This document shows, piece by piece, positions 7,933 to 38,654 of a DNA stretch of 52,006 bases; the stretch's first letter is position 1, and each line of letters begins with the position of its first letter. The DNA lies in assembly GCA_016208905.1 (NCBI GenBank), contig JACQXG010000047.1:1-52006 (forward strand), in the 5' to 3' direction. The notes beneath the pieces were generated by a model. It had not been told where the DNA came from. It saw nothing but the letters and a program-made list of their open reading frames with translations, and did no database searches. The DNA comes from Nitrospirota bacterium. GTDB taxonomy: Bacteria; Nitrospirota; Thermodesulfovibrionia; UBA6902. Made by a program: the position numbers and the translations under genes.

Positions 7933-7983
7933 TTTAAACTCCGTTCTATGGTTGTAATGCTGAACCTGTTTCAGCATCTGAAA

Positions 7984-8006
7984 GGGCGGGGGCACCCCGC
8001 CCCTAC
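7984..8006. repeat. REP-like palindrome overlapping the stop codon of the radical SAM gene
   Basis: GGGCGGGGGCACCCCGCCCCTAC; the CTA at 8003-8005 is the minus-strand TAG stop. Confidence 0.8.
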
Positions 8007-9103: not shown

Positions 9104-10255
9104 TTATGAAAGCTGTATGAATTTCATAAAGACTTCATTGGAAAGGACAAGCCCCTTTCTCGTCAGTTTCATGGTCGTCTCATATGAACAGTCTGAACCT
9201 GTAACTTCAATCAGGCCTGCTGCCTGAAGGTCGGCTATCTCTATCTGATAACAATTAAAAATATTCCTGTTGTACTGGTTCGAAAATGCTTCAACATTAA
9301 TTCCACTGGTTTTACGCAATCCAAGGAAAAGCGCCTCTGACAACGCTATATCTTCGGTTATGGATTCAGATTCTTTGACAGGACTCTTGTTTTCTGAAAT
9401 GAGTTTGAGGTATTCCTCAAGATCATCAGTGTTATGGTACCGTTGAGCATTAATGAAAGAATGAGCGCCGAGTCCGGCCCCGTAATATTCCCCCCTGTCC
9501 CAGTAATTAAGGTTGTTCCTGCATTGGTTGCCGGGTAGTGCGAAGTTTGAAATTTCGTAATGGATGTAGCCTTCGGATGTCAGGTAATCGATTGTGAATT
9601 CATACATCTCGATGATCTTGTCTTCATCAGGCAGGATTAATTTATTGCCCCCTATTAAATATTTATACAACTCGGTCTGTTTCTCCACCGTAAGCTCGTA
9701 TGTGGAAATATGTTTTGGTTTAAGACTGACGGCTTTTCCAAGGGTATTTTCCCAGCTATCAATATCCTGCCCCGGGATCCCGTAAATCAGATCAATCCCG
9801 ATGTTCTCAAACCCAACTTGCCTTGCAAGATCAACCGCCTGACATGATTCTTCTTTGTTATGAATTCTTCCAAGAAAGGAAAGCTCATCATCATTAAAGG
9901 ATTGCACGCCTATGCTGATTCTGTTGATACCAGCTGAACGGATTGCCTTCAATTTATCTTTATCTACAGTCCCCGGATTTGCCTCGATGGTTGCTTCATA
10001 GTTATTCACAAAGCGGAAATGCGTGAATATGTGATTAATAAAGTTTGATAATACACCAGAGGAAAGCGCTGTAGGAGTGCCGCCGCCTATGAAGAACGTG
10101 GACAGCGGCTTTTCGTTTGGAATATTTGCAATCTCATTTTTCAGGGCATCAAGGTAGGCATCCGCCCTGGCAGGGTTATAAATACCGGAGACAAAATCAC
10201 AGTATATGCATCTTTTTAAACAGAAAGGAATATGGACATATAAAGAAGTAGTCAT
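9104..10255 (-). CDS. hemW: HemW-like radical SAM heme chaperone
   Basis: MTTSLYVHIPFCLKRCIYCDF...FFIGGGTPTAL...INRISIGVQSFNDDEL...GIDLIYGIPGQ. Start trimmed from 10270 to the internal Met. Confidence 0.92.
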   Translation of the reverse strand: MTTSLYVHIPFCLKRCIYCDFVSGIYNPARADAYLDALKNEIANIPNEKPLSTFFIGGGTPTALSSGVLSNFINHIFTHFRFVNNYEATIEANPGTVDKDKLKAIRSAGINRISIGVQSFNDDELSFLGRIHNKEESCQAVDLARQVGFENIGIDLIYGIPGQDIDSWENTLGKAVSLKPKHISTYELTVEKQTELYKYLIGGNKLILPDEDKIIEMYEFTIDYLTSEGYIHYEISNFALPGNQCRNNLNYWDRGEYYGAGLGAHSFINAQRYHNTDDLEEYLKLISENKSPVKESESITEDIALSEALFLGLRKTSGINVEAFSNQYNRNIFNCYQIEIADLQAAGLIEVTGSDCSYETTMKLTRKGLVLSNEVFMKFIQLS

Positions 10256-10298
10256 AACCAATTGTAACAAAGTCGAAGATTTACTTTATAATACAAAA

Positions 10299-13348: not shown

Positions 13349-15277
13349 GTGCTTGATAATGGAGATGACATAAAGAGCGTCAATGTTTTTATCCCTGCCG
13401 CGGGGCTGGGTGAGAGACTGCGGCCAATTACCGAACATATTCCCAAGCCTCTTCTCCCTATTCTTGGTCAACCCTCCATACAATACGTCCTTGAAAAAAT
13501 AGCGGCTCTGCCTTTTAACAAAATCGGAATAAACATCCATCACAAGAAAGAAAGCATTGAAGCATGGAGCAGGCAAAGCCCTCTGCATGACAAGATCACT
13601 CTTTTCCCTGAAGAAGAAATCCTGGGGACGGGGGGGGCGCTGAAGAATGCTGAAGAATTTCTGAACGAAGGGACCTTTCTTGTACACAACTCGGACATAC
13701 TGTCTGACATAAATTTAGCCGGCCTGCTTGAATATCATCAAGTATCATATAACCTTGTAACACTGGCCGTTCATGACTATCCGCAATTTAATAGTCTCAT
13801 CATTGACGAAAACGGATTCCTAAAAAACGTAGGGGCGGGTTTCAAACCTGCCACTACTGATGGGAGACTATTAGCCTTTACCGGGATTGCGGTCTATGAG
13901 CCCGCGTTCCTGGACTATCTGCCCACGGGTAAATCCAGCGTAGTCGATGCGTGGCTGAAGGCTGTTGCATCGGGGAACAAGATCGGAACATTTGATGTAT
14001 GCAGGGGCGTGGATGGACCCCGCCCCTACTGGAGCGACATCGGGACGCCCGATGCATACGCTTCTGCTGTGTTTCATGAATTGAGGAATGAAGGCGAGGT
14101 TGTTTATATTCATCCTTCAATAAATAGGTGCGGGGATATTGCTCTGCAGGGAAATGTTGTGATTGAAGAGGGGTGTTTGATTGATGGGGAAATATCTTTA
14201 AAGAATTGTATTGTGTTGCCGGGAAGCAATGCAGGGGCGTTGTATGCAGCGTCACTACAGTACGAATCATTATTTGAAAATTGCATCCTTGGCCCCGGCT
14301 TTCAAATAGACCTCGCTGCGGCTGAGATATTGAGTATTGATGAGGACAATAGACAATTGATCGGGACTGGCGGATCAGACAGGAAATATTTCAGGATTCA
14401 AAAGGACAATAAATCTGTTGTGCTCATGCAGTGTAAAGTTGACGATCCTGATTATGAGCGGCAAGTTGAATATACAAGATTCTTTCTTAAGCACGCTGTT
14501 CCTGTTCCTGAACTGATAGAAGCGGACACCGGCAAGAAGAATGCCATAATTGAAGACGCCGGGGACATTTCTCTTTACAGCTGGCTGAAGTGCCCGCGTG
14601 ACCGTATGGAAATAGAAAATATTTACAAACAGGTTATAGATATCATTGTCCTTATACATGCGGATGTCACTGAAGATATTTCAGAATGCCCGATTCTTAA
14701 AAACAGGATATTCGATTATGATCATTTCCGATGGGAGACTGATTATTTCATCAAGAGGTACTTAGAGGGCTTGAGGAATATAAATGTCAGCAATCGTCCG
14801 ATGCTTAATGAGGAGCTTCATCAACTGGCAGTTAAGGCGGACGCTGTTCCCAAGACAGTAGTACACAGGGATTTCCAATCGCAGAACATCATGGTCATGA
14901 AAGGGCAGGAGCTGCGCCTGATAGATTTTCAGGGCGCAAGGACCGGGCCGCCGGCTTATGATATGGCATCAATGTTATGGGACCCGTATTACCGCCTTGA
15001 GGATGAGATGAGAGAGCGTCTCCTGGATTATTATATTAATAAGATGAAAGCCCGGTCCGGGGGGAAATTCGATGAAGATATTTTTATGGAGTCGCTTGCT
15101 ATATGCAGGCTTCAGAGACATATGCAGGCCCTCGGAGCGTATGGCTTTCTGTCATCCGTAAAAGGGAAAAAATATTTCCTGAAATATATGCCGGAGGGAT
15201 TGAGGCTGCTAAAAGACGACGCCTTCCGTTCAAAGGACGACTGCCCTGAATTATATGATCTGATTATGGGATTATAG
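13349..15277 (+). CDS. Fusion of N-terminal nucleotidyltransferase (MurU-like) and C-terminal APH-fold sugar kinase (AmgK-like)
   Basis: N-term FIPAAGLGERLRPITEHIPKPLLPI...GTGGALKNA...VHNSDI; middle left-handed-helix-like segment; C-term VVHRDFQSQNIMVMKGQELRLIDFQGARTGPPAYDMASML. GTG start. Confidence 0.85.
   Translation: MLDNGDDIKSVNVFIPAAGLGERLRPITEHIPKPLLPILGQPSIQYVLEKIAALPFNKIGINIHHKKESIEAWSRQSPLHDKITLFPEEEILGTGGALKNAEEFLNEGTFLVHNSDILSDINLAGLLEYHQVSYNLVTLAVHDYPQFNSLIIDENGFLKNVGAGFKPATTDGRLLAFTGIAVYEPAFLDYLPTGKSSVVDAWLKAVASGNKIGTFDVCRGVDGPRPYWSDIGTPDAYASAVFHELRNEGEVVYIHPSINRCGDIALQGNVVIEEGCLIDGEISLKNCIVLPGSNAGALYAASLQYESLFENCILGPGFQIDLAAAEILSIDEDNRQLIGTGGSDRKYFRIQKDNKSVVLMQCKVDDPDYERQVEYTRFFLKHAVPVPELIEADTGKKNAIIEDAGDISLYSWLKCPRDRMEIENIYKQVIDIIVLIHADVTEDISECPILKNRIFDYDHFRWETDYFIKRYLEGLRNINVSNRPMLNEELHQLAVKADAVPKTVVHRDFQSQNIMVMKGQELRLIDFQGARTGPPAYDMASMLWDPYYRLEDEMRERLLDYYINKMKARSGGKFDEDIFMESLAICRLQRHMQALGAYGFLSSVKGKKYFLKYMPEGLRLLKDDAFRSKDDCPELYDLIMGL
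13829..13857. repeat. REP-like palindrome inside the MurU-AmgK fusion gene (copy 1)
   Basis: GTAGGGGCGGGTTTCAAACCTGCCACTAC, 29 nt, translated as part of VGAGFKPATT. Confidence 0.85.
14001..14029. repeat. REP-like palindrome inside the MurU-AmgK fusion gene (copy 2)
   Basis: GCAGGGGCGTGGATGGACCCCGCCCCTAC, 29 nt, translated as part of CRGVDGPRPYW. Confidence 0.85.
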
Positions 15278-31772: not shown

Positions 31773-31799
31773 GTAGGGGCGAGGTAATCTCGCCCTTAC
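31773..31799. repeat. REP-like palindrome between fliR and flhB
   Basis: GTAGGGGCGAGGTAATCTCGCCCTTAC, followed by AGAGTTAAGAGTTAAAGG; near copy at 38628. Confidence 0.8.
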
Positions 31800-38627: not shown

Positions 38628-38654
38628 GTAGTGGCGAGGTAATCTCGCCCGTAT
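38628..38654. repeat. REP-like palindrome between flgF and flgG
   Basis: GTAGTGGCGAGGTAATCTCGCCCGTAT followed by AGAGTTAAGAGTCAAAGG; near copy of 31773 element. Confidence 0.8.

Follow-up and report, generated by a model that had tools for sequence, protein, structure and literature searches.

How do palindromic repeats come to be translated within the coding sequence of an enzyme? The question is raised by a MurU/AmgK-like fusion gene (positions 13349..15277, plus strand, 642 aa) in a Nitrospirota bacterium, whose relatives belong to the class Thermodesulfovibrionia. The draft genome measures 2.19 Mb, and the gene lies on its contig C23; the 52,006 nucleotides of this contig are called here the window. 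The encoded protein has a MurU-like sugar-1-phosphate nucleotidylyltransferase domain at residues 14-240 (Pfam NTP_transferase, E=2.9e-19; NCBIfam MurU, E=1.4e-27, below the curated cut-off) and an AmgK/APH-like sugar kinase domain at residues 337-642 (Pfam APH, E=1.5e-20; NCBIfam AmgK, E=3.7e-24, likewise below the curated cut-off). The open frame is intact in the relatives, and we infer that the palindrome-bearing proteins are functional.

In-frame palindromes of the MurU/AmgK-like gene

A preliminary description of this DNA had reported two 29-nt REP-like palindromes in frame within the MurU-like domain, translated as VGAGFKPATT and RGVDGPRP, and its coordinates and translations proved accurate. 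The first palindrome, GTAGGGGCGGGTTTCAAACCTGCCACTAC, is located at 13829..13857 (site 1), is read as VGAGFKPATT, ends in GTAG and CTAC and occupies the linker joining strands E157-161 and E173-183 of the AlphaFold2 model. The second, GCAGGGGCGTGGATGGACCCCGCCCCTAC, is found at 14001..14029 (site 2) and is read as CRGVDGPRPY. A third palindrome had been overlooked: GCAGGGGCGTTGTATGCAGCGTCACTAC, at 14231..14258 (site 3), is also in frame (AGALYAASLQ) and has decayed, with three arm mismatches that make it weak evidence taken alone. At this same site the relatives L021, L032 and L098 carry an intact GTAGGGGCAATTCATGAATTGCCCCTAC (VGAIHELPLL), with one mismatch in L021. Further copies of the palindrome type, formerly placed near 7984, 31773 and 38628, were recovered as related GTAG palindromes of 27 nt at 7980..8006, probably 5' to the start of a gene on the minus strand, at 31773..31799, which is intergenic, and at 38628..38654, which is intergenic and decayed. 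None of the palindromes is assigned to a strand. The number of consensus matches expected by chance in the window was 0.00 on average in 100 shuffles, and three copies in this single gene have a Poisson probability of about 7e-6 given 20 coding copies per 1.1 Mb, a value that is indicative only since the gene was chosen for its copies.

The palindromic peptides had also been proposed to be extra residues relative to the homologues. At site 2 this holds cleanly, as the segment measures 15 residues with the palindrome and 9 in almost every homologue that lacks it, a net gain of six residues. At site 1 it does not, although the peptides of both sites are lineage-specific. The site 1 linker naturally ranges from 9 to 23 residues, and many palindrome-free linkers equal or exceed the palindrome-bearing (type A) ones in length, so the palindrome has taken the place of linker sequence or displaced it there. 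Since at site 2 a 29-nt element alone would cause a frameshift, its arrival must have included a compensating change of the flanking bases. No clean pair of empty and filled sites with exact insertion boundaries was found among the MurU homologues or in the LeuRS and AroC loops discussed below, because these loops vary too much.

The palindrome as a genomic repeat and its probable RAYT transposase

Copies in the own genome were counted in a 1.23-Mb sample of the draft, supplemented by pattern searches. The exact symmetric pattern GTAGGGGCG-N11-CGCCCCTAC gave no match, because the copies have decayed and vary in length, and scans allowing arm mismatches were used instead. The preliminary description had suggested a count of copies genome-wide and inside coding sequences, and the outcome was positive: palindromes of the form GTAGGGGC..GCCCCTAC with up to two arm mismatches occurred 43 times in 1.23 Mb (one of them overlapping another), against 6 in a reversed-arm control. 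Of these copies, 16 are located within ORFs, 7 overlap an ORF in part and 20 are intergenic; coding sequence makes up about 89% of the sample, so genes are depleted of copies, but not free from them. A few of the 16 precede probable starts or lie in questionable ORFs, so that not all are true insertions. Convincing in-frame hosts are the genes for LeuRS (2 copies), AroC, ProC, CobQ and a P-type ATPase (3 copies), and ArgRS and CobT are probably further hosts. A P-type cation ATPase gene (L134:2807-5554, minus strand) has the same number of in-frame GTAG-REPs as the MurU-AmgK gene. The REP peptides of AroC and LeuRS are mostly or wholly missing from the PDB homologues 1q1l and 1h3n, respectively, which show gaps or shorter loops at these places. 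In the relatives, the same palindrome core is present in 0 to 90 copies.

Concerning the ends of the element, 28 of 31 GTAG-GGGC palindromes lack an exact CTAC at the opposite end, yet many have near-CTAC ends; in the palindromes linked to RAYT genes the tag is clearly one-sided. Control tags in the same scan gave no palindromes for GATG, GGTA, TTAG and GTAC, 10 for GTAA and 6 for GCAG. Two of the three frames through a GTAG palindrome are open, the frame that reads TAG being closed.

We looked for a REP-associated tyrosine transposase (RAYT), as the preliminary description had suggested, and found a probable one in the own genome. It is encoded by a 180-aa frame at G000:C67:27175-27714 that matches NF047646 (E=1.2e-16; 60.9 bits, cut-off 80) and Pfam Y1_Tnp (23.7 bits with neighbours, cut-off 23) and contains HFH and NYYEH motifs. 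Three GTAG-GGGCRGGTTCYAAACCYGCCC elements of the form GTAG-GGGC(A/G)GGTTCYAAACC(T/C)GCCC, tagged on one end only and sharing the core of the palindromes, stand at its 5' end, so that the whole, judged by its sequence features, qualifies as a RAYT/REP (GTAG-REP) system. The loci with the best Pfam Y1_Tnp matches were rejected as palindrome-linked RAYTs in favor of this divergent gene: their scan gave no palindromes, because they are mostly other Y1 transposases.

RAYT loci had 25 same-core palindromes in 93 kb, against 31 for 1,234 kb of the own genome and 5 for 198 kb of other loci, and around RAYT homologues in the relatives their density was about ten times that of the genome sample. Many copies have a CT immediately after the GCCC arm or overlapping its end. 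The form GTAG-GGGCGGGTTTCAAACCCGCCC-CT is a candidate single-stranded substrate of the RAYT. TnpAREP binds or acts on single-stranded REP, with a variable dependence on GTAG, and cleaves at a CT (or CA) beside the hairpin (PMC8266576). The enrichment at RAYT loci, this published cleavage at CT and the CT found beside the hairpin make it likely that the palindromes are mobilised by the RAYT of their own genome. Against this, RAYT matches and copy number were only weakly correlated across 37 genomes (Spearman 0.32, p=0.05), and some copy-rich genomes, such as the draft MAGs G031 and G033, gave no RAYT match to the query used.

In the RAYT ORFs at L214, L223, L226, L229 and L230, the stretch from the HUH motif to the catalytic tyrosine includes an in-frame GTAG-REP, and at L226 and L230 this REP shares its core with the flanking REPs. 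Its presence within the ORF could possibly reflect self-insertion or self-regulation.

Repeated occupation of the same loops

An alignment of 90 MurU/AmgK-like proteins was examined, consisting of the window protein and 89 Thermodesulfovibrionia homologues. Three repeat types gave 57 matches in these proteins, which derive from many independent assemblies, and 0 in codon-shuffled copies. Chance palindromes or assembly artefacts, which a draft MAG as source might have suggested, are refuted by these counts together with the shuffle expectation of the window. The 57 matches lie only near residues 80, 161-170, 216-223, 276-280, 299-304 and 571-575, and the AlphaFold2 model (mean pLDDT 76) shows coil at all six spots, which is what one would expect if insertions persisted in permissive loops alone. 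The spots are occupied by at least three types of palindromic repeat that are unrelated to one another: type A is the GTAG-REP, to which types B (PPHPPLAKGG) and C (PHPNPPP..GRGLGGG) are unrelated. Fitch counts on a FastTree phylogeny, in which some branches are weak, gave at least 13 state changes for site 1, 5 for site 2 and 19 for site 3, at least 37 in total. In the own genome, family B is rare (6 matches against 3 in a reversed control) and family C was sought and is essentially absent, so the presence of these repeats in the relatives is lineage-dependent. No RAYT link was seen for families B and C in the data analyzed. At site 1, the type C inserts of L093, L094, L095 and L097 measure some 30-60 residues, and three tandem GSVNKESLSSPC-like units are nested inside that of L094.

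The palindromes could instead be an ancient, vertically inherited part of murU, with an RNA or DNA hairpin under selection for mRNA stability or translation and no repeated insertion at all. This would agree with the finding that the element occupies an identical alignment column and frame in several genera, and also with the fact that its DNA is better conserved than its surroundings: third-codon-position identity reaches 0.83 in the site 1 palindrome, the top value among 591 windows, against 0.47 for the gene as a whole, although this figure is biased upward because the rows were picked by DNA match. The same difference suggests, however, that one consensus arrived repeatedly at site 1 and did not drift from one old insertion. 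Moreover, the nearest kin of the window either lack the palindrome at this site (L006, L008) or carry the unrelated type B repeat there (L007), the same sequence is present elsewhere in the genome, and sites 2 and 3 are patchily distributed on the tree. We thus consider ancient inheritance highly improbable and prefer repeated insertion.

As a control we used HemW, whose gene is a neighbour in the window (9104-10270, minus strand) and was picked regardless of repeats. Thirty HemW proteins (11.5 thousand codons) contained 12 matches, a density that resembles that of MurU, and nine of them fell in one loop at residue 208, which holds type B or C repeats in L295, L310, L313, L315, L317, L318 and L321. 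This same loop invasion rules out MurU as a special target. The LeuRS and AroC loops of the relatives also contain different repeats, tandem-repeat inserts among them, and the invasion of loops appears, from these alignments, to be general in the class and not peculiar to MurU. In-frame inserts composed of short tandem units, inverted in some cases (e.g. GAGTTAAGAGTTAAGAG..TCCGAACTCCGAACTC), were observed in the LeuRS loop of L246, L258, L261, L263 and L264 and in the AroC loop of L281 and of the own genome, where a GTAG-REP is nested in the tandem-repeat insert. The LeuRS loop of L260 has another palindrome type, CCCCCACCGCTTTGCTTCGCAAAGCGAAGCAGTGGGGG, in frame.

If the peptides changed the activity, stability or partners of the enzymes, the sites would be re-used because the inserts are useful. 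The refilling of the same loops in many lineages could be read in this way, as could the finding that both LeuRS palindromes of the own genome are common to the sister species G003. Nevertheless, the same loops are filled by peptides as unrelated as VGAGFKPAP, PPHPPLAKGG and PHPNPPP..GRGLGGG, the affected enzymes (HemW, LeuRS, AroC) are themselves unrelated, and many relatives are without insert. An adaptive role is therefore highly improbable, and we infer that the loop peptides are tolerated rather than useful.

Hotspots might also reflect the choice of target and not survival, if insertion were steered by a DNA preference such as one for pre-existing hairpins. Nested elements speak for such a preference: L024 and L073 have family B within what remains of a family A element, L050 and L022 have another element within family A, and REP A lies in the AroC tandem-repeat insert; in addition, the family A element of site 1 begins at a Val-Gly (GTnGGn) of the host. 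On the other hand, unrelated families are common to the same loops, all six spots are predicted coil, and about two thirds of the copies are intergenic or overlap ORF ends. Steering by the target is unlikely to be the explanation of the hotspots, but it may account for part of their pattern.

We are thus highly confident that GTAG-REPs, in all likelihood mobilised by a RAYT, inserted into murU-amgK and that the copies in frame within loops survive as translated spacers. The earlier proposal of REP-like palindromes inserted in frame by a process like that of the Rickettsia RPEs is supported by the lineage-specific peptides, the multicopy repeat and the RAYT. According to the mechanism that we propose, REP hairpins would be mobilised as single strands by the RAYT of the same genome and would insert widely, the murU-amgK coding sequence included. 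Selection would retain only those insertions that keep the frame and lie in permissive surface loops, and a retained REP would be translated into a short spacer peptide. Later on, copies would decay, be overwritten or nested by other repeats, or be lost, and the same loops would consequently hold different repeat families in different relatives. A broader proposal is put forward only tentatively: several unrelated families of mobile palindromes could have entered the same core-enzyme loops in frame, repeatedly and independently, as a continuing class-wide source of loop evolution in Thermodesulfovibrionia, and RAYT genes could use their own in-frame REP for self-regulation.

Relation to known elements

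Intragenic GTAG-REPs and the Rickettsia RPEs are already established (Di Nocera et al. 2013, PMC3733652). The elements described here resemble the published GTAG-REP/RAYT systems (PMC3733652; group 3 REPtrons, PMC8266576) in the GTAG tag, the near-perfect palindrome of 18-21 nt, the multiple copies, mostly intergenic with a minority in frame inside ORFs, and the placement at the RAYT gene. They differ in the tag, which is unpaired in the published systems but faces a pairing CTAC-like end in many of the intragenic copies here, in that unrelated repeat families are found in the same loops, and in the RAYT ORFs that contain their own in-frame REP. In two Xanthomonas species REPs occur at about the same recB site and otherwise at different sites, and the main text of the same paper makes no mention of Nitrospirota (PMC3733652). 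New here are the phylum, the RAYT genes with their own REP in frame and the fact that, across the class, unrelated repeats have come to occupy the same loops.

With the Rickettsia RPEs the present elements share the in-frame location in genes for conserved proteins, where the repeats are apparently tolerated, but the sequences are unrelated and those described here are GTAG-tagged and accompanied by a RAYT. The Rickettsia repeats that match RPE-4 and RPE-6 are CGTC-tagged and without a dedicated transposase (PMC3733652). The present elements work like RPEs, yet they are not classed as such because their tag is GTAG and not CGTC. REPINs are inverted pairs of REPs that form RAYT-linked miniature repeats; the link to a RAYT is alike, whereas the intragenic copies found here are single hairpins.

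In-frame mobile repeats have so far been regarded as an oddity of Rickettsia and a few REP-rich genomes. In Thermodesulfovibrionia the process seems to be widespread within one class, to affect housekeeping enzymes and to re-use loops. As this re-use extends over many lineages, defined sites allow a count of independent insertions, and it becomes testable whether such sequences are junk that is tolerated or a raw material from which proteins evolve. For annotation, the finding serves as a warning that VGAGFKPAP or PPHPPLAKGG in predicted proteins can represent translated repeats. In these bacteria, tiny mobile repeats are a recurrent source of extra protein sequence.
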